Shown: positions 27,969 through 42,228 of the stretch, one piece after another
Layout: each line of letters opens with the position of its first letter
How positions within the stretch are numbered: the stretch's first letter is position 1
Source of the DNA: Staphylococcus sp. 17KM0847
GTDB taxonomy: Bacteria > Bacillota > Bacilli > Staphylococcales > Staphylococcaceae
DNA: 64,000 bases
Direction of reading: 5' to 3'
Assembly (NCBI RefSeq): GCF_013463155.1
Contig: NZ_CP040781.1
Span: forward strand, 682,001-746,000
Position numbers and translations under genes: made by a program
The notes under the pieces: generated by a model
Told to the model about the DNA's origin: nothing
What the model saw: only the letters and a program-made list of their open reading frames with translations
The model's database searches: none

Positions 27969-28063
27969 ATATATTTTTTAATAATTATGGATTGATGGGA
28001 GGTGTCTCCCTTTATGAAATATATTATAATGCACATAAGAGTGAATAAATCAGGAGTGAAATT

Positions 28064-29275
28064 ATGAAAAATATTTTATTAGCAGTAACAGGCGGTATTG
28101 CGGCATATAAAGCGATTGATTTAACGAGTAAACTTACACAGTCAGGCTATAATGTGCGTGTGATGTTAACAGCTCACGCACAAAAGTTTGTAACACCATT
28201 ATCTTTTCAAGCTATTAGCCGTCAAGCTGTTTATACAGATATATTTGTTGAAGAAAATCCATCCGAAATTCAACATATCGCATTGGGGGATTGGGCAGAC
28301 GCGGTAGTTATTGCACCTGCAACAGCAAATATTATTGCTAAATTAAGTCATGGTATGGCAGATGATATGGTGACGACAACACTCCTTGCTACCGAAAAAC
28401 CTAAATTTCTTGCACCTGCTATGAATGTACATATGTATGAGAACCCAAGAGTACAAGCAAATATGAAAATACTAGAACAAGATGGTTATCATTTTATTGA
28501 GCCGGGTGAAGGGTTCCTTGCTTGTGGTTATATCGCCAAGGGACGTATGGCAGAACCACTAGAAATTCAAGCTGTTTTAGAGCGTGAAACAACTGATAAA
28601 AAGAGTCAAAATAAGCATTTAGCATCTTATTTTAAAGGACAACGCGTACTTATTACTGCAGGTCCAACGGTAGAAGTCATTGACCCCGTACGTTATGTAT
28701 CCAATCGTGCTTCAGGTAAAATGGGATATGCATTAGCCCACGCACTTGTAGATTTGGGGGCAGAAGTAACACTTATTTCAGGACCGACACATTTGACACC
28801 ACCAGACGATGTAATATTTGTACCTGTAACTAGTGCTGAAGAGATGTTTCAAGCTGTGATCAAACGTTATGAAAGTCAGGACATTGTATTTAAAACGGCT
28901 GCAGTCTCTGATTATACGCCTGTAAACAAGTTAGAAAATAAAATGAAAAAGCAAGAAGGTGCTTTATATATCGAGTTTGAGCGCACAAAAGATATCCTAA
29001 AATACTTAGGGGCACATAAGCAACATCAAAAATTAGTAGGATTTGCTGCTGAAACACAAGATGTCGAATATTATGCACAACAAAAACTGACACGTAAAAA
29101 TGCAGATGTTGTAATCGCAAATAATGTAGGAGATCGTTCTATCGGATTTAATTCTGATGATAATGAAGTGACATTGTATTTTAAAGATGGTTTTAAAGTG
29201 CCTATTGCTAAAGTATCTAAAGCGGAGTTAGCTTATAAAATCTTAACAGCATTAGAAAGTAGATGGCGTATATGA
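28064..29275 (+). CDS. coaBC: Bifunctional phosphopantothenoylcysteine decarboxylase / phosphopantothenate-cysteine ligase
   Basis: A 403-residue fusion catalysing two steps of coenzyme A synthesis. The N-terminal flavin-dependent decarboxylase (CoaC, about 1-185) has VTGGIAAYKAIDL, active-site H71, the PAMNVHMYENP loop and the flap with the catalytic Cys in FLACGYIAKGRMAEP. The C-terminal ligase (CoaB, about 192-400) has the NRASGKMGYALAHAL nucleotide site and a conserved Lys in ENKMKKQ. It overlaps priA, whose ATG shares bases with its stop. Confidence 0.96.
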   Translation: MKNILLAVTGGIAAYKAIDLTSKLTQSGYNVRVMLTAHAQKFVTPLSFQAISRQAVYTDIFVEENPSEIQHIALGDWADAVVIAPATANIIAKLSHGMADDMVTTTLLATEKPKFLAPAMNVHMYENPRVQANMKILEQDGYHFIEPGEGFLACGYIAKGRMAEPLEIQAVLERETTDKKSQNKHLASYFKGQRVLITAGPTVEVIDPVRYVSNRASGKMGYALAHALVDLGAEVTLISGPTHLTPPDDVIFVPVTSAEEMFQAVIKRYESQDIVFKTAAVSDYTPVNKLENKMKKQEGALYIEFERTKDILKYLGAHKQHQKLVGFAAETQDVEYYAQQKLTRKNADVVIANNVGDRSIGFNSDDNEVTLYFKDGFKVPIAKVSKAELAYKILTALESRWRI

Positions 29276-31680
29276 TTGCGCAAGTGATTGTAGATATAGC
29301 CGCAAAAAGCGTAGATAAAACATTTGATTATCTTGTACCAGAAGATTTAACAAATGTCGTAAAACCGGGTGTTCGTGTGATCGTCCCTTTTGGGTCTCGT
29401 AAAATTCAAGGCTATGTCATGAACCTCGTACCTGATAGAGATTCAGATATTGAAATATCAAGACTCAAACCGATTTATGAAGTTAAAGATATTCAGCCTG
29501 AATTGACAGAAGAACTTGTGGAATTAAGTGAATGGTATAGTCGTTATTTCATTGCTAAACGTATTTCAATATTAGAAGCAATGTTACCCAGCGCCCTCAA
29601 AGCAAAATATACGAAAGCATTTCAACTTATTGATAAAACATTATTGCCAGAAGCGTTGCTAGCACGCTTTAATCAAGAAGGGATCTATAAATATAAAGAA
29701 GCACAAACCCATGAAGATGTGAGCACGTTATTAAAGTATATGAAACAAAAAGCGGTTAAAGAAATTACTATTTTATCGCAACACACATCTAAGAAAAAAC
29801 AACGTGCTGTAAGAATCATTAAGACGCATGCCAGTGATGAAGTTTTAGAGGCGCTAGAAAAACGACCGAAACAATATGAGGTTTATGCGTTTTTACTAGA
29901 TGAGCAACATCGTGATGTATTGTTACGAGAACTTCATAATATGAATTTTTCCACTTCTGCTATTAATACATTAGTGCGACATGGATTTATTGAAAAATAT
30001 GATGTCATTGTAGAACGTGATCCGTATGAAGGACGCATATTTGAACAGGAACCGAAACGTCAATTGACAACAGAACAACAAATAGCATTTGATAAGATGA
30101 AAGAAGCTGTTGATGATTCGCGAGATCAAACGTTTCTATTACATGGTGTTACGGGATCAGGAAAAACAGAAGTGTATTTACAAATTATCGAAGAAGTGTT
30201 AAATCATCAAAGAGAGGCAATGATGCTCGTACCAGAAATTGCATTAACACCTCAAATGGTCAATCGTTTTAAGCGACGTTTTGGTGATGAAGTTGCAGTA
30301 TTACACTCAGGTTTATCACATGGGGAGCGTTATGATGAGTGGCAGAAAATACGAGATGGTCGTGCCAAAGTAAGTGTAGGTGCACGTTCTAGTATATTTG
30401 CACCTTTTAAAAAATTGGGCATCATTATTATTGATGAAGAACACGAAGCAACGTATAAACAAGAAGACTATCCGCGCTATCATGCCAGAGACATTGCAGC
30501 ATGGCGTTGTCAATACCATCATTGTCCACTTGTGTTGGGGAGTGCAACACCTAGTTTAGAAAGTTATGCGAGAGCAACAAAAAAAGTATATCAGCTATTG
30601 TCAATGCCAACACGTGTAAATCAGCAGCCTTTACCAGATATTATCATTCGAGATATGCGAGAAGAGCTAGCCAATGGTAATCGCTCTATTTTTTCTAATG
30701 ATTTAGCCAAGGCAATAGAAGAGAGATTAGAAAAAAAGGAACAAGTGGTATTATTTTTAAATCGTCGTGGCTATGCATCATTTATGTTGTGTCGAGATTG
30801 TGGTCATGTACCACAATGTCCAAATTGTGATATTTCTATGACTTATCATAAAACATCCGATGAACTTAAATGTCATTATTGCGGTCATCATGAGCCTGTA
30901 CCATTTAAATGTCCAAACTGTGAAAGTGAACATATTCGTCAAATGGGAACAGGTACACAGCGTGTAGAAGAATTAATACAAGAACGTTTTCCATCTGCCC
31001 GTATTATTCGTATGGATGTAGATACAACGAGTAAAAAAGGAAGCCATGAACAATTGCTAAAAGCATTCGGTGAGGGGCAAGGAGATATTCTATTAGGCAC
31101 ACAAATGATTGCGAAAGGACTTGATTTTCCTAATATTACATTAGTAGGCGTCTTAAATGCGGATACAATGTTAAACTTACCGGACTTTCGTTCAAGTGAG
31201 CGAACATATCAATTGTTAACACAAGTTGCAGGGAGAGCCGGTAGACACCAGAAAAAAGGTGACGTTATTATTCAAACATATAATCCAGATCATTATGCGA
31301 TACAAGATGTTCAAGCGAATGATTATTTAGCATTTTATGAAAAAGAAATGAAGTTTAGACAAATCGGTAAATATCCACCATATTATTATTTAATTAATTT
31401 TACAATTTCACATGAAAATATGAAAAAAGTATTACAAGCAGCAACGCATATTCATCAAATTTTATTGCAACATTTAACAGGTAAAGCATTCGTTTTAGGT
31501 CCAGCGCCTGCTGCATTAACGCGAATCAATAATGCATTTCGCTTTCAAATATTAGTGAAATATAAAAGTGAACCATCATTAGCACATGCATTGCGATATT
31601 TAGATGACTACTATCATGAACAATATGAGCAAGATCATCTCGTCTTACGTATTGATATAGGACCTTATATGCTAATGTAA
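29272..31680 (+). CDS. priA: Primosomal protein N' (replication restart helicase PriA)
   Basis: An 802-residue SF2 helicase that reloads the replisome at stalled forks. The N-terminal 3'-DNA-binding domain starts MIAQVIVDIAAKSVDKTFDY. Walker A GVTGSGKT is near 293-300 and the DEEH box near 388. Eight cysteines form two zinc sites across about 506-550 (CRDCGHVPQCPNC, CHYCGHH, CPNCES). I chose the ATG at 29272, which overlaps the coaBC TGA in an ATGA junction; another in-frame ATG three codons earlier is possible. Confidence 0.96.
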   Translation: MIAQVIVDIAAKSVDKTFDYLVPEDLTNVVKPGVRVIVPFGSRKIQGYVMNLVPDRDSDIEISRLKPIYEVKDIQPELTEELVELSEWYSRYFIAKRISILEAMLPSALKAKYTKAFQLIDKTLLPEALLARFNQEGIYKYKEAQTHEDVSTLLKYMKQKAVKEITILSQHTSKKKQRAVRIIKTHASDEVLEALEKRPKQYEVYAFLLDEQHRDVLLRELHNMNFSTSAINTLVRHGFIEKYDVIVERDPYEGRIFEQEPKRQLTTEQQIAFDKMKEAVDDSRDQTFLLHGVTGSGKTEVYLQIIEEVLNHQREAMMLVPEIALTPQMVNRFKRRFGDEVAVLHSGLSHGERYDEWQKIRDGRAKVSVGARSSIFAPFKKLGIIIIDEEHEATYKQEDYPRYHARDIAAWRCQYHHCPLVLGSATPSLESYARATKKVYQLLSMPTRVNQQPLPDIIIRDMREELANGNRSIFSNDLAKAIEERLEKKEQVVLFLNRRGYASFMLCRDCGHVPQCPNCDISMTYHKTSDELKCHYCGHHEPVPFKCPNCESEHIRQMGTGTQRVEELIQERFPSARIIRMDVDTTSKKGSHEQLLKAFGEGQGDILLGTQMIAKGLDFPNITLVGVLNADTMLNLPDFRSSERTYQLLTQVAGRAGRHQKKGDVIIQTYNPDHYAIQDVQANDYLAFYEKEMKFRQIGKYPPYYYLINFTISHENMKKVLQAATHIHQILLQHLTGKAFVLGPAPAALTRINNAFRFQILVKYKSEPSLAHALRYLDDYYHEQYEQDHLVLRIDIGPYMLM

Positions 31681-31690
31681 CAAATAAGAG

Positions 31691-31735
31691 AAACCCCAGT
31701 GCCGTACAAAATGTACAGCTTCTGGGGTTTTTATA
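31691..31735. terminator. Terminator between convergent priA and the Sdr-like gene
   Basis: AACCCCAG (31692-31699) pairs with CTGGGGTT (31722-31729), with an inner GTAC/GTAC stem, followed by a T-rich run. It clearly serves priA. On the minus strand the run after the stem is TTTCTCTT, so it may also slow read-through from the adhesin gene. Confidence 0.85.
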
Positions 31736-31770
31736 TACACAAGAAAGGCATATCCTCTTTTTATAACAGA

Positions 31771-34700
31771 TTATTCTTGTTCATGTCTTTTCTTTTTACG
31801 CCCAAAGAGAATCAATGAACCAAGACCAGCAAATAATGTACCGAATAAGGTTGGATTTGTTGAACTTTGACCTGTATTTGGCAATCCTAAGCTATCAGAG
31901 TCCGAATTGCTGTCCGAATCACTGTCGGAATCCGAGTCGCTATCCGAATCAGAGTCACTATCTGAGTCAGAATCGCTGTCGGAATCTGAGTCGCTATCCG
32001 AATCCGAGTCACTATCTGAGTCAGAATCGCTGTCGGAATCCGAGTCGCTATCCGAGTCAGAGTCGCTGTCGGAGTCAGAATCACTGTCAGAGTCCGAATC
32101 GCTATCAGAGTCCGAATCGCTATCGGAGTCAGAGTCACTGTCAGAATCTGAGTCACTGTCGGAATCCGAATCGCTGTCCGAGTCGGAGTCACTATCAGAA
32201 TCCGAGTCGCTGTCGGAGTCAGAGTCACTGTCAGAATCTGAGTCACTGTCGGAATCACTGTCAGAATCCGAGTCGCTATCCGAGTCAGAGTCGCTGTCGG
32301 AGTCAGAATCACTGTCCGAGTCAGAATCGCTGTCGGAATCTGAGTCGCTATCCGAATCCGAGTCACTATCTGAGTCAGAATCGCTGTCGGAATCCGAATC
32401 GCTGTCCGAGTCGGAGTCGCTATCCGAGTCAGAATCGCTGTCGGCATCTGAGTCACTGTCGGAATCGCTGTCCGAGTCGGAGTCACTGTCGGAATCTGAG
32501 TCACTGTCTGAATCCGAATCGCTGTCCGAGTCGGAGTCGCTATCAGAATCCGAGTCGCTGTCGGAGTCAGAGTCGCTGTCCGAGTCACTGTCTGAATCAG
32601 AATCGCTATCCGAGTCAGAATCGCTGTCGGAGTCAGAGTCGCTGTCCGAGTCACTGTCGGAATCCGAATCGCTATCCGAGTCAGAATCACTGTCTGAATC
32701 CGAGTCACTATCGGAATCAGAATCGCTGTCCGAGTCGGAGTCGCTATCAGAATCCGAATCGCTATCCGAGTCAGAGTCACTGTCTGAATCAGAGTCACTG
32801 TCGGAATCACTGTCGGCATCTGAGTCGCTATCAGAGTCGGAGTCGCTGTCTGAATCCGAGTCACTGTCGGAATCCGAGTCGCTATCAGAATCCGAGTCAC
32901 TATCTGAGTCAGAATCGCTGTCCGAGTCGGAGTCACTATCAGAATCCGAGTCGCTGTCGGAGTCAGAATCACTGTCAGAGTCCGAATCGCTATCAGAGTC
33001 GGAGTCGCTATCGGAGTCAGAGTCACTGTCAGAATCTGAGTCACTGTCGGAATCACTGTCAGAATCCGAGTCGCTATCCGAGTCAGAGTCGCTGTCGGAG
33101 TCAGAATCACTGTCAGAGTCCGAATCGCTATCAGAGTCCGAATCGCTATCGGAGTCAGAGTCACTGTCAGAATCTGAGTCACTGTCAGAATCTGAGTCAC
33201 TGTCGGAATCAGAATCGCTGTCCGAGTCGGAGTCACTATCAGAATCCGAGTCGCTGTCGGAGTCAGAGTCACTGTCAGAATCCGAGTCGCTATCCGAGTC
33301 AGAGTCGCTATCCGAATCCGAGTCACTATCTGAGTCAGAATCGCTGTCAGAATCCGAGTCACTGTCAGAGTCCGAATCACTGTCCGAATCCGAGTCACTG
33401 TCCGAATCCGAATCGCTGTCAGAGTCGGAGTCGCTATCAGAATCCGAGTCGCTGTCGGAGTCAGAGTTGCTGTCCGAGTCACTGTCGGAATCAGAATCGC
33501 TATCCGAGTCAGAATCACTGTCCGAATCCGAGTCACTATCGGAATCAGAATCGCTGTCAGAGTCGGAGTCGCTATCCGAGTCGGAGTCGCTGTCAGAATC
33601 CGAGTCACTGTCAGAATCCGAGTCGCTGTCTGAATCTGCGTCGCTGTCAGAATCCGAGTCGCTGTCAGAATCCGAGTCGCTATCAGAATCCGAGTCACTA
33701 TCTGAGTCAGAATCGCTGTCGGAATCTGAGTCACTGTCTGAATCCGAGTCGCTATCCGAGTCACTGTCTGAATCAGAATCACTGTCTGAATCAGAATCAC
33801 TGTCAGAATCCGAGTCACTGTCTGAATCCGAGTCGCTATCGGAGTCAGAGTCACTATCAGAGTCCGAATCGCTGTCGGAATCTGAGTCACTGTCTGAATC
33901 AGAATCGCTGTCAGAGTCCGAATCGCTATCCGAGTCGGAGTCACTATCCGAGTCGGAATCAGAATCACTGTCAGAATCAGAATCGCTGTCAGAGTCAGAA
34001 TCACTATCTGAGTCAGAGTCGCTGTCGGAATCAGAATCAGAGTCGCTATCAGAATCCGAGTCACTATCTGAGTCAGAATCGCTGTCAGAGTCGGAGTCAC
34101 TATCAGAATCCGAGTCGCTGTCCGAGTCAGAGTCACTGTCGGAATCACTGTCCGAATCAGAGTCGCTATCCGAATCAGAGTCGCTATCCGAATCCGAGTC
34201 ACTATCCGAATCCGAGTCACTATCAGAGTCAGAATCGCTGTCAGAATCAGAGTCACTGTCAGAGTCCGAATCACTGTCAGAATCAGAGTCACTGTCTGAA
34301 TCCGAATCGCTGTCAGAGTCGGAGTCGCTATCAGAATCCGAGTCGCTGTCGGAGTCAGAGTCGCTGTCCGAGTCACTGTCGGAATCAGAATCGCTATCCG
34401 AGTCGCTATCAGAATCAGAGTCACTATCGGAATCAGAATCGCTGTCAGAGTCGGAGTCGCTATCCGAGTCGGAGTCGCTGTCTGAATCCGAGTCACTGTC
34501 AGAATCCGAGTCGCTGTCTGAATCTGCGTCGCTGTCAGAATCAGAGTCGCTGTCAGAATCAGAGTCGCTATCAGAATCCGAGTCACTATCTGAGTCGGAG
34601 TCGCTATCCGAGTCAGAGTCACTGTCTGAATCCGAATCGCTGTCCGAGTCCGAATCGCTATCCGAGTCGGAGTCGCTATCCGAGTCACTGTCTGAATCAG

Positions 34701-37700
34701 AATCACTGTCCGAATCAGAGTCACTGTCTGAATCCGAATCGCTGTCGGAATCTGAGTCACTATCAGAATCACTGTCGCTGTCAGAATCAGAGTCACTGTC
34801 GGAATCCGAATCACTGTCAGAATCCGAGTCGCTGTCAGAATCCGAGTCGCTATCAGAGTCCGAATCGCTGTCAGAATCAGAGTCGCTGTCGGAATCTGAG
34901 TCACTGTCTGAATCCGAATCGCTGTCCGAGTCTGAGTCGCTATCGGAATCAGAGTCGCTGTCAGAATCCGAGTCACTGTCAGAATCCGAGTCGCTATCGG
35001 AGTCCGAATCGCTATCAGAATCCGAATCGCTATCCGAGTCCGAATCGCTGTCGGAATCCGAGTCGCTATCGGAATCCGAATCACTGTCTGAATCCGAATC
35101 GCTGTCAGAGTCAGAATCACTATCTGAGTCAGAGTCGCTGTCGGAATCTGAGTCACTGTCTGAATCAGAATCGCTGTCAGAATCCGAGTCGCTATCAGAG
35201 TCGGAGTCGCTATCCGAGTCAGAGTCACTGTCTGAATCCGAATCGCTGTCAGAATCAGAATCACTATCTGAGTCAGAGTCGCTGTCGGAATCTGAGTCAC
35301 TGTCTGAATCAGAATCGCTGTCCGAGTCAGAGTCGCTATCCGAATCAGAGTCGCTGTCAGAATCAGAGTCACTGTCTGAATCCGAATCGCTATCGGAATC
35401 CGAGTCAGAATCATCTTCTATTTTATTTTCATAGAAACCTGAATCAATTGTTTCGTCGTTTTCTGTAAGGTTAACTTGAACAATTAGACCATTAGAATCT
35501 TTTTCCATATCATCACCTTGGTGTGAATCTGTTGGAATATAATTTTCAGGTGTTTCAAATTCAATAATATATTGATTTGGGTCTAGATTTTTAAATGAGT
35601 ATTCACCATTTTCATCAGTAGTAGTTCTTGAAATTTCATTACCATCTTTATCTTTTAAGATAACGGTAACATCTGGAATACCTTTTTCATCATCATTTTG
35701 AATCCCATCTTTATTATCATCTTTCCATACTAAATGACCTAATTTAAACTTTGGTTTTTTATGGAAACCAGAGTCGATCGTTAGATCGTCACCATCAAGG
35801 AGATCAACATCGATACGAAGGCCATCAGAATCGAGTTCATCATCATTGCCTTGTTCAGCTTGAGTAGGAACAAAGCCATCAGGTGTAGTAAATTCAACAG
35901 TGTAGTGACCTGAGTCTAAGTTGTCGAAAAGATATTGACCATTTTGGTCAGTCAAAGAACGAGCAATTTCGTTACCGTCAGAATCTTTAAGGATCACGGT
36001 TACGTTAGGAATGCCAGATTCATCATGACCTTGAATGCCATCTTTATTTGTATCTTCCCAAACAAAGTTACCTAATTTAAACTTTGGTTTTTTGTGGAAA
36101 CCAGAGTCGATCGTTAGATCGTCACCATCAAGGAGATCAACATCAATACGAAGACCATCAGAATCGAGTTCATCATCATTGCCTTGTTCAGCTTGAGTAG
36201 GAACAAAGCCATCAGGTGTAGTAAATTCAATAGTGTAGTGACCTGGGTCTAAGTTGTCGAAAAGGTATTGACCATTTTGGTCAGTCAAAGAACGAGCAAT
36301 TTCGTTACCGTCAGAATCTTTAAGGATCACGGTTACGTTAGGAATGCCAAATTCATCATGACCTTGAATGCCATCTTTATTTGTATCTTCCCAAACAAAG
36401 TTACCTAATTTAAATTTTGGTTTTTTATGGAAGCCTGAGTCAATTGTTAAATCGTCACCATCAAGGAGATCAACATCAATACGAAGACCATCAGAATCAA
36501 GTTCATCATCATTGCCTTGTTCAGCTTGAGTAGGAACAAAGCCATCAGGTGTAGTAAATTCAACAGTGTAGTGACCTGGGTCTAAGTTATCGAAAAGATA
36601 TTGACCATTTTGGTCAGTCAAAGAACGAGCAATTTCGTTACCGTCAGAATCTTTAAGGATCACGGTTACGTTAGGAATGCCAAATTCATCATGACCTTGA
36701 ATGCCATCTTTATTTGTATCTTCCCAAACAAAGTTACCTAATTTAAATTTTGGTTTTTTATGGAAGCCCGAGTCAATTGTTAAATCGTCACCATCAAGGA
36801 GATCAACATCAATACGAAGACCATCAGAATCAAGTTCATCATCATTGCCTTGTTCAGCTTGAGTAGGAACAAAGCCATCAGGTGTAGTAAATTCAACAGT
36901 GTAGTGACCTGGGTCTAAGTTATCGAAAAGATATTGACCATTTTGGTCAGTCAAAGAACGAGCAATTTCGTTACCGTCAGAATCTTTAAGGATCACGGTT
37001 ACGTTAGGAATGCCAAATTCATCATGACCTTGAATGCCATCTTTATTTGTATCTTCCCAAACAAAGTTACCTAATTTAAACTTTGGTTTTTTATGGAAAC
37101 CAGAGTCGATCGTTAAGTCATCGTGTTGAAGATCAACTTGAACTGAAAAGCCGTCCGAGTCATTCGCATCATTATGACCTTGATTTGTAGCAGTAGGGAC
37201 AAAACCATCAGGTGTAGTAAATTCAACAGTGTAGTGACCTGGGTCTAAGTTATCGAAAAGATATTGACCATTTTGGTCAGTCAAAGAACGAGCGATTTCG
37301 TTACCGTCAGAATCTTTAAGGATCACGGTTACGTTAGGAATGCCAGATTCATCATGACCTTGAATGCCATCTTTATTTGTATCTTCCCAAACAAAGTTAC
37401 CTAATTTAAATTTTGGTTCTCGATAGAAACCGGAATCAATCGTTAAGTCATCGTGTTGAAGGTCAACTTGAACTGAAAAGCCGTCCGAGTCATTCGCATC
37501 ATTATGACCTTGATTTGTAGCAGTAGGCATAAAGCCATCAGGTGTAGTAAATTCAACAGTATAATGACCGGGATCTAAGTTTTCAAAAAGATAATGACCA
37601 TTATTGTCAGTGGTTGTGTTTGCGACTTCTTGTCCTTGGTCATTTAATAAAACAACCGTAACGTTAGGAATACCAAGTTCATCAGTATCTTGAACCCCAT

Positions 37701-40488
37701 TTTTATTGGTATCTTCCCAGACAAAGTCACCTAGAACGAGTTTAGCTTCACGATGAAAGCCAGCGTCAATTGTCAAGTTATCAGAATCAGTGAGATCTAC
37801 ACTAACAATAGTACCATCAGAATCTTTATCACTATTATTGCCTTGATGAGTAGGCGAAGGAATAAAGCCATCAGGTGTGATGAATTCAACGATATAATGT
37901 CCCTTTACAAGTTTCTCGAAAAGATAGTGACCTGTATTATCGGTAGTCGTACGTGCAATTTCTTCACCGTTGTTATCTTTTAAAATAACAGTAACACCTG
38001 GAAGAGGATTTTCATTTACATCTTGAATCCCATTTTTATTCGTATCTTCCCAAACGTAATCACCTATCTTGAGTGTAGAGCCTTTATAGTAACCGGAATC
38101 AATGGTCATATTATCTTGTGTTAAGTTGACCTTAACGATAACACCATCAGAGTCTTTATCGTCGTTTGTACCTTGATTACTATCTGTTGGAATGTAACCT
38201 TTAGGGGCGAAGAATTCAACAGTGTAATGACCTTTTTTAAGATTTTCAAAGAGATATTGACCATTCTCATTTGTCGTTGTACGTGCAATCTCTTTTTCGT
38301 TTTCATCTTTAAGGATAACAGTCACATCGGCAATACCTGGTTCATTTGCATCTTGAATTCCATTTTTATTGGTATCTTCCCAAACAAAGTTCCCAAGTTT
38401 ATAAGAAAAGTTTGTTCTGTAAAAACCAGAATCGATTGTGAGGTCATCAGCTTCAATGTCAACATCGATAACTAAGCCATCCGAATCATTATCATCGGCA
38501 TCATCTTGTTCGGCTAATGTTGGTTTATAACCTTCAGGTGTGATGAATTCGACAGTATAATGACCAGCATCTAAGTTGTTAAACAAGTAGTGACCTGTTT
38601 CATCTGTTTTTGTGCGTTTAATAATACGACCATTAGAGTTTTTCAATAAGACGGCAACACCTTCGATACCGTGTTCATTGTCGTCTTGAATACCGTTTTT
38701 ATTTGTGTCTTCCCAAACGTAATCTCCGATAAGAAGTTTTGAACTATTTTTATAGAAGCCAGAATCAATTGTAAAATCATCATCTTGTAGCGAAACTTCT
38801 ACCTCTAAACCGTTTGAATCTGTACTTTCATCGCCACCTTGTTCAGTGTCTGTTGGATAGTAATCGGCTGGTGGAATAAATTGTACGATATAGTCATTTG
38901 GTTTTAAGTCTTCAAAGACATAATGACCCGTTTTATCAGTCGTTGTGCGTTTTAATTCTTTACCTGACGCATTTTTTAAAATAACAGTGACGTTTGCCAA
39001 TCCATCTTCACTATCGTCTTGGATACCATCTTGGTTTTTATCGATCCAAACATAGTCCCCTAAACGAAATGTTGATTTTTCTTTATAAAAACCAGAGTCA
39101 ATGGATACGTCATCGTTCGTGAGGTTAACATTGACTACTGTACCATCAGAGTCGACATCTTCATAACCTGGATTTTGGAAATTAGCTTTTGTTGGTTTGT
39201 AACCTGGTGGCGTAACAAATTCCACGATGTATTGATTAGGTTCTAAATTTTCAAAAGCGTATTGACCTGTTTCATCTGTTAAGGTACGTTTGATTTCTTT
39301 ACCTTGATGATCCTTTAAGATGACGGTGATATTTGGGATACCTGATTCATCAGAGTCTTGAACACCATCTCTATTTTCATCAAGCCAAACCGTATCTCCA
39401 ATTTTATATTTAGGTTTAAGCTGATAGAAACCAGAATCAATAGTCATATCATCATGAGTTAAATAAACATCAACTTCTAAACCATCTGAATCAGCAGTAT
39501 CATCATTGCCTTGTTCAGCTAATGTTGTATGGTAACCATCCGGTGTTTCAAACTTAACAATATATCTACCGGCATCAAGGTTATTAAATTCATAGTAACC
39601 GGATTGATCTGTTGTTGTTTGTTTCAAAAATCTGCCCGATGATGTATGCAGTGTAACGGATACATTAGATATACCGTTTTCGCTTAAATCTTGAATACCA
39701 TTTTTATTCGCATCATCCCAAACATAGTTACCTAAACGATATTTTGTATATACAGGTCTTGGAGGAGGAGGCGGTGGTGCGCCACAACCACATGGTGTTT
39801 TATAACGTAAAGCATTATAGCCACCATAATAACCAGCTGAACGGAACATCACATAGTTATTACGTGCAAAAGCTAACTGTCGTTCTTCTGTTGGAATATC
39901 TTGTGTTGGTAAAGTTGTAGCTTTATCAATAACAGATGCACTCAAATGTTGTTCTTCTTCTGGTAACGCAAAGGATGTTGGCAATGTACTTGGTGGTTGT
40001 TCGTTTTGTTGGACATCTTGTTCGGTATTCAATGGTGTAGTACGAGGTGGTGTCTCGAGGTTTGTGAAAAATTTCGCTTCGTCTTCAGAAATTTCATCGT
40101 CTTGCTCAAGTGATTCCGTGTTGTTCGTGTTTGCTGTGTCTTCAGATGTGTGAATAACATCTTTGGTTGGTGTAGTGTCTTGCTCGTCTGCTGTGCTATT
40201 GGTTTGAGTTGTTGCTTCATTATCAGCGATTATTACTTCTTTGACTTCTGATGAGTTGTCGGTAGCTGATTGTTCAATATTGTCTGATGCAATGTCATTT
40301 AAATCATCAGTGGTGTCATCAATCAGAGATTCAGAAGTTTGCTGATTGTCAATTTCATTCGCTTTGGCATCATTACTTAATCCGAATAATAATGTTGTTC
40401 CGACTAAAATAGATGCCGTTCCAACGGTGAATTTTCGAATAGAGTATTTATTTAGCCTATTCGGAATAAAATCATACTTCTTATTCAT
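31771..40488 (-). CDS. Giant LPXTG-anchored Sdr-like surface protein: 13 B repeats and a very long Ser-Asp stalk, no A domain
   Basis: A 2905-residue wall protein. Residues 1-43 are a YSIRK-type signal peptide ([18 protein letters not shown]) that directs septal secretion. Residues 44-248 are acidic, Thr/Gln/Asn-rich and probably disordered, ending in a Tyr/Gly patch, CGCG (Cys 233 and 235) and six Pro. Thirteen SdrD/Cna-type B repeats of 110-113 residues follow (about 249-1688). Each opens with a G-[DN]-[FYT]-VW-[EDLI]-D motif and an Asp/Asn loop of the calcium-binding kind, and ends TIDSGFY/H. Residues about 1692-2866 are Ser-Asp repeats, then LPNTG at 2869-2873, a hydrophobic segment and RKKKRHEQE for sortase A anchoring. 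SdrC/D/E have a ligand-binding N2-N3 region of several hundred residues; here there is no room for one. Binding partner unknown. The gene lies alone between priA and def-like, where I recall no such gene in S. aureus. Confidence 0.95.
31870..31884 (-). other. Sortase A sorting signal LPNTG
   Basis: Codons for LPNTG, 37 residues before the C-terminus, followed by a hydrophobic stretch ([16 protein letters not shown]) and a basic tail. This is the complete cell wall sorting signal of the Sdr-like protein; sortase would cut between Thr and Gly. Confidence 0.95.
31891..35414 (-). repeat. Ser-Asp repeat region (about 3.5 kb of GAY-TCN/AGY hexamers)
   Basis: About 1170 codons alternating Asp and Ser, with only four Ala (near 32443, 32816, 33635, 34523) and two Asn (near 31906 and 33473) substitutions. 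The hexamers are arranged in a dominant 18-base unit in which Ser codons run TCN, AGY, TCN. The register is broken at scattered places where a 12-base unit occurs. The reverse strand is also open over the whole length. Long arrays like this often change length by slipped-strand or recombination events, and assembly errors are common. Confidence 0.97.
35420..39744 (-). repeat. Array of 13 SdrD-type B repeats, including five nearly identical 330-333 bp copies
   Basis: Copies B1 to B7 (C-terminal end near 37415) have diverged from each other. B8 to B12 (37414 down to 35753) are almost identical at the DNA level, with a 333-base period (330 for B8). They differ by a few changes such as DEFG/DESG, PGHYT/SGHYT and VEF/IEF. 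B13 (35752-35420) is divergent again. B8 is a hybrid: its first half matches B9-B12 and its second half ([20 protein letters not shown]) matches B7. Confidence 0.93.
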
Positions 40489-40540
40489 ATTTACACCCCT
40501 ATACAGTTGAGATTAGCGGTATATCAATACTGCTACAATG

Positions 40541-40569
40541 ATTATATGCTAACATTTTTATAAAAACAA
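40541..40569 (-). promoter_or_regulatory. Promoter candidate of the Sdr-like gene
   Basis: On the minus strand, TTGTTT (40569-40564) and a perfect TATAAT (40546-40541) are 17 bases apart, about 52 bases before the ATG. A strong ribosome site AGGGGTG lies just before the start. The rest of the 323-base gap to the deformylase-like gene is very AT-rich and has no ORF. Confidence 0.55.
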
Positions 40570-40751
40570 CATCGAAATTAAGTTTTAAAAATTATATTAT
40601 TGTTATTTTAGAATAGTTAAAATTAGAGTTTGAGACTATTGTTTTTCTTGATTTTTGCAGTTGATTTATAAATAAAGGTAAAATGTGTTGATATATATCA
40701 TCAAATAAGTGTCATATCGCGTTTTTTGTTATGATAAAAGTAAGTGATGCT

Positions 40752-40779
40752 ATCGTTGTACGATGAATTAGTCTATAAT
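40752..40779 (+). promoter_or_regulatory. Candidate -10 element and small palindrome before the deformylase-like gene
   Basis: TATAAT at 40774-40779 lies 33 bases before the ATG. The place where a -35 box should be (40751-40756) is poor but overlaps the palindrome ATCGT-TGT-ACGAT (40752-40764). That could be an operator for an activator or repressor, or chance. Confidence 0.35.
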
Positions 40780-40811
40780 GAAATGATGAATTTTGATGAG
40801 GAGTGTGCTGT

Positions 40812-41300
40812 ATGGCGGTGAGAAAAATATTAAATTATACAATGACAAATTTAAGAAAAAAAACATCAAATGTTACAGTGTTTGATCAAAACATAGTATC
40901 GCTCATACAAGATTTGGAAGATACAATGTATGAAGCAGGAGGACAAGCCTTATCAGCACCACAGATTGGTGTGAATCAACAAGTTGCCATTGTGGATATG
41001 GGTGTAGAAGGTTTACTGCAGCTCATCAATCCTGTACTGGTTTCTGCTAGTACAGAGATGACTACTGAAATAGAAGGTTGTTTGAGTATACCTAATCGCT
41101 ATGGAGAGGTAACACGCAGTCGTATGATTGTTGTGAAAAGTTACGATGTAAACGGCAATCAAGTCGAGTTGACGGCATATGACGATATTGCACGTATGAT
41201 TTTACATGAGATAGACACGCTGAATGGCACGTTGTTTATTGACAAAATGGATAAAGAAATCCCATTAGAAGCATTGGAGGCGTATTTGGATTATGAGTAA
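40812..41300 (+). CDS. Peptide deformylase-like protein, probably inactive
   Basis: A 162-residue member of the deformylase family, lying before fmt as in many bacteria. Motif 1 is present as ALSAPQIG (near 37-44) and motif 2 as EGCLS (88-92, with the metal-binding Cys 90). Motif 3, normally HExDH, reads HEIDT (132-136): His 132 and Glu 133 are kept but the second zinc-binding His is Thr 136 (ACG at 41217-41219). The usual N-terminal HP-L segment is also changed. S. aureus carries a deformylase-like paralogue here that, as I recall, has lost other active-site residues, so a genuine def is expected elsewhere. The start is the ATG eight bases after GAGGAG. The reading frame is intact, so it is probably still made. 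Confidence 0.85.
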
Positions 41301-42228
41301 GATTATTTTTATGGGAACACCTGATTTTTCGAAACCTATACTAGAAATGCTAATCAAAACAGAAGAAGTGGTGGCTGTTGTGACACAGCCTGATCGTCCT
41401 GTAGGTAGAAAGCGTAAGCTCACACCACCACCTGTTAAGGAAGTGGCATTGGCACATGATATTCCGGTATATCAACCCGAAAAACTAATAGGTTCAGAGA
41501 CTTTAGAGGAATTGTTAACATTGCCATGTGATTTGATTGTTACAGCTGCATTTGGTCAATTATTACCAGAAGTTTTGTTGAATTATCCAACGCATGGTGC
41601 TGTAAATGTGCATGCCTCTTTACTACCTAAATATCGTGGAGGCGCACCGATCCATCAAGCGATTATTGATGGAGAGGGTGAAACAGGTGTGACTATTATG
41701 TATATGGTCAAAAAACTAGACGCGGGTGATATTATTTCACAGCGTGCTATTCCGATTGAAACTTCCGACAATGTAGGTACAATGCATGATAAATTAAGTG
41801 CACTTGGCACGGAGTTGTTAGAGGAAGTACTACCTAGCCTTTTAAACGGAACGAATACACGTATCCCTCAAGATGATGCTCATGCCACATTTGCTTCAAA
41901 TATTTTGCGTGAAGATGAATTGATTGATTGGGAAAAAGATGCGAAAGCGATTTTTAATCATATTCGAGGATTATCTCCATGGCCTGTGGCATATACAAAA
42001 ATGGATGATAAAGTGATGAAAGTTTATCAGGCAGAAATAGTGCAAAATAAGCAAGGCGAAGCAGGGCGTATTATTGAAGTAACGAAAAAGCACATTATTG
42101 TGGGAACGGGTTCTCAAGATGCAATCGCTTTGACTGAAATTCAGCTTGCTGGTAAGAAACGCATGCCTGTCGCAAACTTTTTAAGTGGTGTGCAAGATGA
42201 ACTTGTTGGAAAGGATTTACAATCATGA
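41293..42228 (+). CDS. fmt: Methionyl-tRNA formyltransferase
   Basis: A 311-residue enzyme that formylates initiator Met-tRNA using 10-formyl-THF. The N-terminal domain begins [17 protein letters not shown], the catalytic and folate-binding stretch [20 protein letters not shown] is near 105-124, and the C-terminal OB-fold tRNA-binding domain covers about 205-311. Overlaps the deformylase-like gene by eight bases and rsmB by four, so expression is coupled. Confidence 0.97.

Follow-up and report, generated by a model that had tools for sequence, protein, structure and literature searches.

A Staphylococcus Sdr-type wall protein without an A domain carries a CGCG–polyproline tip conserved in five of seven orthologues

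Staphylococcus sp. 17KM0847 encodes an Sdr-type wall protein of 2905 residues that has no ligand-binding A domain. Since N2–N3, the defining feature of the Clf–Sdr MSCRAMMs of the dock-lock-latch type, was searched for and is absent, we do not assign the protein to this group; it is a novel variant of the Sdr architecture. The region in front of its B repeats ends in a short CGCG–polyproline tip, which five of the seven orthologues share. We tentatively regard the protein as a fibre of B repeats, stiffened by Ca2+ and set on an SD spacer, that may display a reactive thiol tip for disulfide bonding, whereby the thiol function is suggested by analogy.

Results

Gene and protein architecture

The window, i.e. 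the whole analysed stretch of 64,000 nucleotides, contains the gene between two genes which we take to be priA and def. The gene is convergent with the former and divergent from the latter. The features are as follows.

29263..31680, plus strand: priA, downstream neighbour (presumed name; translation; match in 84 of 84 genus genomes)
31771..40488, minus strand: A-less Sdr-type wall protein, 2905 aa (ORF and translation; Pfam SdrD_B 13 times and YSIRK; LPXTG model)
31774..31884, minus strand: LPNTG sorting signal, aa 2869–2905 (TIGR01167 above cut-off; PF00746 below cut-off)
31891..35418, minus strand: SD-repeat spacer, aa 1691–2866 (composition; 18-bp tandem array)
35419..39735, minus strand: 13 SdrD_B repeats, aa 252–1690 (PF17210, 13 stretches)
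39754..39792, minus strand: CGCG-A-polyproline tip, aa 233–245, with both cysteines of the protein, C233 and C235 (84% identity, five orthologues)
39793..39840, minus strand: Tyr-rich stretch, aa 217–232 (sequence; variable length among orthologues)
39841..39927, minus strand: short motif PT-x-x-IPT..FRSA, aa 188–216, with a weak predicted helix at aa 202–211 (alignments; helix block-mean pLDDT ~52–63)
39928..40359, minus strand: acidic leader without predicted fold, aa 44–187 (block-mean pLDDT 30–41; 26.8% identity and 14% gaps, five orthologues)
40360..40488, minus strand: YSIRK signal peptide, aa 1–43 (Pfam PF04650; 87.7% mean pairwise identity, five tip-bearing orthologues)
40803..41300, plus strand: def, peptide deformylase-like, divergent neighbour (presumed name; translation; match in 84 of 84 genus genomes)

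The extent of the gene (31771–40488) and the length of its product had been given exactly by the first-pass annotation, as the ORF translation on the minus strand demonstrates, and the YSIRK signal, the 13 B repeats and the giant SD stalk of its Sdr-like protein were all found by Pfam and by composition. The YSIRK signal (residues 10–35) reached 46.4 bits with PF04650 against a cut-off of 20. The LPNTG motif at residue 2869 scored 26.2 bits with TIGR01167 (cut-off 15.9), and the same region stayed just below the PF00746 cut-off of 20 with 18.5 bits.

About 90% of the protein consists of B repeats and SD sequence and the whole is strongly acidic, in agreement with a passive coat, a long acidic fibre that would shield the cell or space its neighbours without specific binding. 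Such a role leaves the conservation of the tip unexplained, and we consider it improbable.

Several further observations concern the annotation of this region. Long alternative-frame ORFs at 31815–35468 (plus strand), 31907–35434 (plus strand) and 31887–35414 (minus strand) cover the SD tract and are most likely by-products of the repeats, not genes. The NCBIfam model MSCRAMM_SdrC gave 2257 bits (cut-off 1700) for the A-less protein with its best stretch in the B and SD repeats; by exceeding its cut-off through repeats, this model can lead automatic annotation to mislabel A-less genes. At gathering thresholds no Rfam family matched positions 28000–42000, and scans for promoters and terminators returned counts no higher than in shuffled sequences. 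Genome G000 comprises 1,986,507 bp, and the other 83 genus genomes, listed at rounded sizes of 2.1–3.2 Mb, are all larger.

Absence of the A domain

The first-pass annotation had denied the protein an A (N2–N3) domain and had proposed a structure prediction of the N-terminal segment, an HMM search against N2–N3 families and a comparison of the priA–def locus; all three analyses agree with its claim. In the N-termini of the seven orthologues, the part of the proteins on which the absence of N2–N3 rests, no N2 or N3 family was listed by Pfam at E≤10, a listing in which the HMMER filters drop most matches above ~0.1, and YSIRK was the sole match over its cut-off in all seven. Paralogues in the same genome served as a positive control: Pfam recovered Big_8 (3.6e-19) and SdrG_C_C (3.5e-30) in a protein of 1401 aa at locus L020 and Big_8 (2e-19) in one of 2389 aa at L021. 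Ten of the genome's 12 further YSIRK proteins entered this paralogue scan, two of them complete and eight as their N-terminal 1000 residues; L023 and L028 3586–5646 were left out.

Structure prediction gave the same picture, with no predicted fold in the 207-residue N-terminus. In the AlphaFold2 model, residues 44–193 had block-mean pLDDT values of 30–41 and nothing before B1 was folded except the weak helix at residues 202–211. In a second run with a seven-row alignment the tip again showed no confident fold, and B1 was modelled less well. A PDB search with residues 44–248 gave a best E value of 0.091. A hidden N2–N3 fold is ruled out by the Pfam scan of the N-termini together with these models. 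Residues 44–248 (205 aa) had been described as acidic and of low complexity. This holds for their charge (40 D+E against 11 K+R), but not for the last ~30 residues, which are Tyr-rich, include CGCG and six prolines and are not acidic.

Orthologues and the priA–def locus

Six other Staphylococcus genomes have an orthologue beside def, namely S. americanisciuri (L012), S. microti (L013), S. rostri (L014) and the genomes G073, G074 and G045, and each of these orthologues lacks an A domain. Since the same absence recurs in six other genomes, an assembly error that removed the A domain is ruled out. The role distinct from Sdr/Clf ligand binding that had been postulated for the protein is supported by the missing Pfam families in seven orthologues, by the control from the same genome and by the structure prediction.

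In six of the seven genomes both priA and def flank the gene; the S. microti contig ends within the SD tract, so that only def is visible. Across the genus the gap between the two flanking genes varies from 138 to 55,718 bp; this range comes from the 79 of 84 genomes in which a single contig carries both matches. In view of this range from 138 bp to 55.7 kb, the priA–def junction is a plastic site at which insertions vary throughout Staphylococcus. The gap measures 6.3–9.9 kb in six of the seven carriers; the remaining one is S. microti, with its split locus. The A-less architecture is probably ancestral at this site in one Staphylococcus clade.

Among the best 120 of 994 matches (7983 candidates scored), a sample ranked by similarity, 51 entries have YSIRK, and 50 of these include PF17961 (N2 type) among their listed Pfam families, from which the counts were read. 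The sole YSIRK entry of this sample with no PF17961 listed is P0033, itself an orthologue.

The locus could also represent the decay of an Sdr gene after loss of its head, or an artefact of the assembly. A frame break within the SD sequence of draft contig L014 (S. rostri) would fit this explanation, whereas the seven genomes have long open frames and the same lack of an A domain, and the tip and the B repeats are conserved. We therefore judge decay or artefact very improbable. The break itself lies at ~16690–16852 of L014 (S. rostri DSM 21968), where the open frame stops in the SD tract and a further long frame follows; it is either an error of the draft assembly or a real change.

The CGCG–polyproline tip

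In five of the seven orthologues (window, S. americanisciuri, S. microti, S. rostri and G073) the end of the leader follows one scheme, in which a Tyr-rich stretch is succeeded by CGCG, A or T, a proline-rich run and then B1. C-G-C-G is invariant in the alignment of the five, and the proline run is broken as PPPVAP in S. americanisciuri. Among these five sequences, which come from one clade, the mean pairwise identity falls from 87.7% in the signal peptide to 26.8% in residues 44–187, where 14% are gaps, rises again to 84.0% in CGCG-Pro and is 63.6% in B1. A recognisable version of the preceding motif (aa 188–216) occurs in all seven orthologues, with 41.7% mean identity. The display of a small N-terminal tip, as suggested by the first-pass annotation, receives indirect support from the conserved CGCG–polyproline sequence.

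A conserved cysteine pair is unusual for a staphylococcal wall protein within the sets counted here. Of the 12 further YSIRK proteins encoded in the genome, nine contain no cysteine, as do 22 of the 28 proteins (some partial) from a region search. The latter were mostly signal-peptide matches and included no orthologue. In four of the five tip-bearing proteins the tip cysteines are the only ones seen, for S. microti in a record that ends within the SD tract. The protein of S. rostri DSM 21968 has one extra cysteine, counted up to the frame break, at a site occupied by R in S. rostri P0033, a sequence whose tip likewise reads CGCG.

At E≤0.001, a profile built from the tip found seven genomes among the 108 of the family and again seven among the 157 of the order, at the identical seven loci with one match each, two of which span only the part ahead of the cysteines. 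No other gene in the 157 genomes of the order was matched, which rules out the tip outside the clade as far as this profile reaches. A protein-database search with the G073 tip returned one protein among 19 candidates, an S. rostri orthologue.

In G045 and G074 the leader motif IPTN...FRSAN runs directly into B1; both proteins lack the tip and any cysteine and have kept the stalk. A tree of six neighbouring housekeeping proteins (2226 columns, six outgroup genomes) placed the window lineage deepest and G074 plus G045 as sister to the tip-bearing G073 with support of 100. All six genes adjoin the locus, so this is a local tree, and support was weak (53 each) for the placement of S. americanisciuri and of the outgroup G077. 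Since one loss explains this tree while a gain needs several events, the tip appears to be ancestral and to have been lost once in the two sister genomes.

The cysteine pair could also be structural or metal-binding. As a metal-dependent tip, the two cysteines would bind a soft metal and join fibres, comparable to Zn2+ and the G5-E repeats of Aap. Two invariant cysteines in C-G-C spacing are consistent with this, and Zn2+-dependent homophilic contacts are known for Aap, according to passages of PMC7403478. Against it stand the mere pair of cysteines, the lack of any invariant histidine in the tip alignment and the lack of a predicted structure for the tip. We hold such a metal site to be rather unlikely.

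Some related sequence features were noticed in other wall proteins. By eye, a short FR[SA]/LR[TA] motif lies near the end of the unfolded leader, ahead of the first folded domain, in YSIRK paralogues at L019, L021, L026 and L027, as it does in the present orthologues. At G000:C1:806500–813500 and 867500–879500 (L027, L028) four YSIRK proteins are encoded, three of them with near-identical signal and leader and differing later regions, as if heads had been swapped behind a common leader. The SdrD_B proteins P0029 and P0030 show a CICKC stretch close to the C-terminus.

B repeats and SD tract

The SdrD_B repeats start at residues 252, 363, 476, 587, 698, 808, 919, 1029, 1139, 1250, 1361, 1472 and 1583 and thus have a period of 110–113 residues. 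In an AlphaFold2 model of residues 44–475 (15-row alignment), B1 and B2 reached block-mean pLDDT values of 81–97. Foldseek found SdrD A2-A3-B1-B2 (10ps) as the best PDB match of the model, with E 2.1e-26 and 231 aligned columns at 40% identity. By sequence, the match to 10ps begins where the leader ends, at residue 249. All 13 repeats contain stretches of the form D-x-N-x-[ND]-G and D-S-[DN]-G, with variants of the first loop in five of the 13 (B8–B12) and in B13. Later in this loop D is replaced by G in B8–B12 and by N in B13. B8–B12 (aa 1029–1582) read IQGHDE, compared to [IV]QD..E in B1–B7, a change of an acidic first-loop residue to glycine.

DNA identity within B8–B12 is 87–100%, with B9 and B10 identical (100%), which indicates a recent amplification of this block, as judged from the sequence. 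B1–B7 and B13 share ~57–68% identity with one another, and B7 and B8 share 81%. Of the 1172 residues counted in the SD tract, 1166 are either D (584) or S (582), and the other six are A (4) or N (2). The exact copy numbers of B8–B12 and of the SD repeats could be affected by the assembly. Numbers of SdrD_B stretches also differ among the orthologues, with 13 in the window, 11 in L012, 12 in L013, 16 in L014, 12 in L029, 14 in L038 and 17 in L039.

The B repeats themselves may be the binding surface, for a ligand or for homophilic contacts, with the N-terminus as an unfolded leader and the tip as a spacer. Excerpts of PMC7403478 report that the B domains of S. epidermidis SdrF bind collagen and promote adhesion to Dacron. 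The 11–17 SdrD_B stretches in seven orthologues, the amplification under way in B8–B12 and the retention of the stalk in the tipless orthologues are in line with such a surface. It leaves unexplained an invariant CGCG beside a drifting leader and a cysteine pair in a protein class mostly without cysteine. We rank a working surface formed by the B repeats as a possible explanation, next after the rod with a thiol tip.

Discussion

The order of elements in the protein suggests how a fibre with a thiol tip might work. Behind the leader, which ends near the short motif, the position expected for N2–N3 is taken by the Tyr-rich stretch, by CGCG and by a spacer of prolines, after which B1 begins. The B repeats would form a calcium-stiffened rod that the SD tract lifts out of the wall. 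At the distal end of this rod the CGC pair may undergo disulfide exchange with a partner, such as a cysteine-rich host protein, a neighbouring fibre or a neighbouring cell, while force-resistant B domains would carry the load. The calcium-stiffened fibre that the first-pass annotation had offered as one role would follow from the B-domain family, and calcium binding and mechanical strength are adopted here from the family literature: passages of PMC6232131 describe B domains of SdrG and SdrD that coordinate three Ca2+ and unfold at forces >2 nN, and call their role in adhesion debatable. We infer the reactivity of the thiols, the existence of a partner and adhesion as the outcome.

Adhesion by thiol chemistry is, by analogy, the most likely function of the protein. 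The CGC pair with its C-x-C spacing is found in five of the seven orthologues, the window included, and the free CGC tripeptide is reported to have a reduction potential of -167 mV, CGC and RKCGC peptides being described as mimics of PDI (passages of PMC3173608, PMC4316792). S. aureus reportedly relies on a single DsbA (excerpt of PMC12453122). All seven orthologue genomes encode a DsbA-like protein that has CPYC and starts with a hydrophobic N-terminal segment; since the tipless genomes G045 and G074 carry it as well, it does not discriminate between the readings. In its most specific form, which is speculative and which we regard as unlikely in all its parts together, the protein would be a sortase-anchored thiol adhesin with C233/C235 as a redox pair on a polyproline spacer, a rod of nanonewton strength, and disulfides to the host or a neighbour that can be switched by redox state and calcium.

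The main evidence against a thiol tip comes from the two tipless orthologues that keep the stalk. Since G045 and G074 have neither tip nor cysteines and yet retain the stalk, the protein can do without its tip. Confidence of AlphaFold2 for the tip was low in both models. The small base of five sequences from one clade and the deviating first loop in five of the 13 B repeats likewise weigh against the proposed reading.

The Clf–Sdr MSCRAMMs (SdrC/D/E, SdrF, SdrG) share YSIRK, SdrD_B repeats, the SD tract and LPXTG with the protein described here, which differs from them by the lack of N2–N3 and by its CGCG–polyproline tip. It also has 13 B repeats, compared to two, three and five in SdrC, SdrD and SdrE of S. 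aureus, as given in the abstract of PMC3775735. SdrH of S. epidermidis is similar in being an Sdr-named protein with a short A region of 60 residues; according to passages of PMC3098876 it has no B repeats and no LPXTG but a C region of 277 residues, unlike the window protein with its 13 B repeats and LPNTG. P0086 of Macrococcoides canis likewise is a wall protein with SdrD_B repeats behind a different N-terminus and without PF17961 among its listed Pfam families. However, ~360 other residues and Thr/Pro/Glu repeats precede its B repeats, and it shows no YSIRK at the start and no CGCG tip.

Stalk repeats with functions of their own are known from SdrF, with its collagen-binding B domains, and from Aap, with its homophilic stalk (passages of PMC7403478). 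Both differ from the present protein by having an A domain, and the stalk of Aap is built of G5-E instead of SdrD_B. CsgC and other CXC redox proteins resemble the tip in their invariant CxC pair (passages of PMC3173608). CsgC is a folded Ig-like domain, whereas the pair described here lies in a tip without predicted fold, and we claim no homology. Among the open-licence papers listed in literature searches, no title, abstract opening or passage described an Sdr protein that lacks the A region and bears a cysteine tip.

At least seven genomes of different Staphylococcus species appear to retain an Sdr stalk that lacks the head for ligand binding, which suggests that the function of the stalk is separable from that of the A domain. 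Since orthologues with and without the tip both occur in nature, the role of the B repeats, called debatable in passages of PMC6232131, can be tested directly. If the thiol-tip reading is true, these staphylococci would have a mode of sticking other than dock-lock-latch, the collagen hug and thioester domains, namely a covalent and redox-controlled adhesion.
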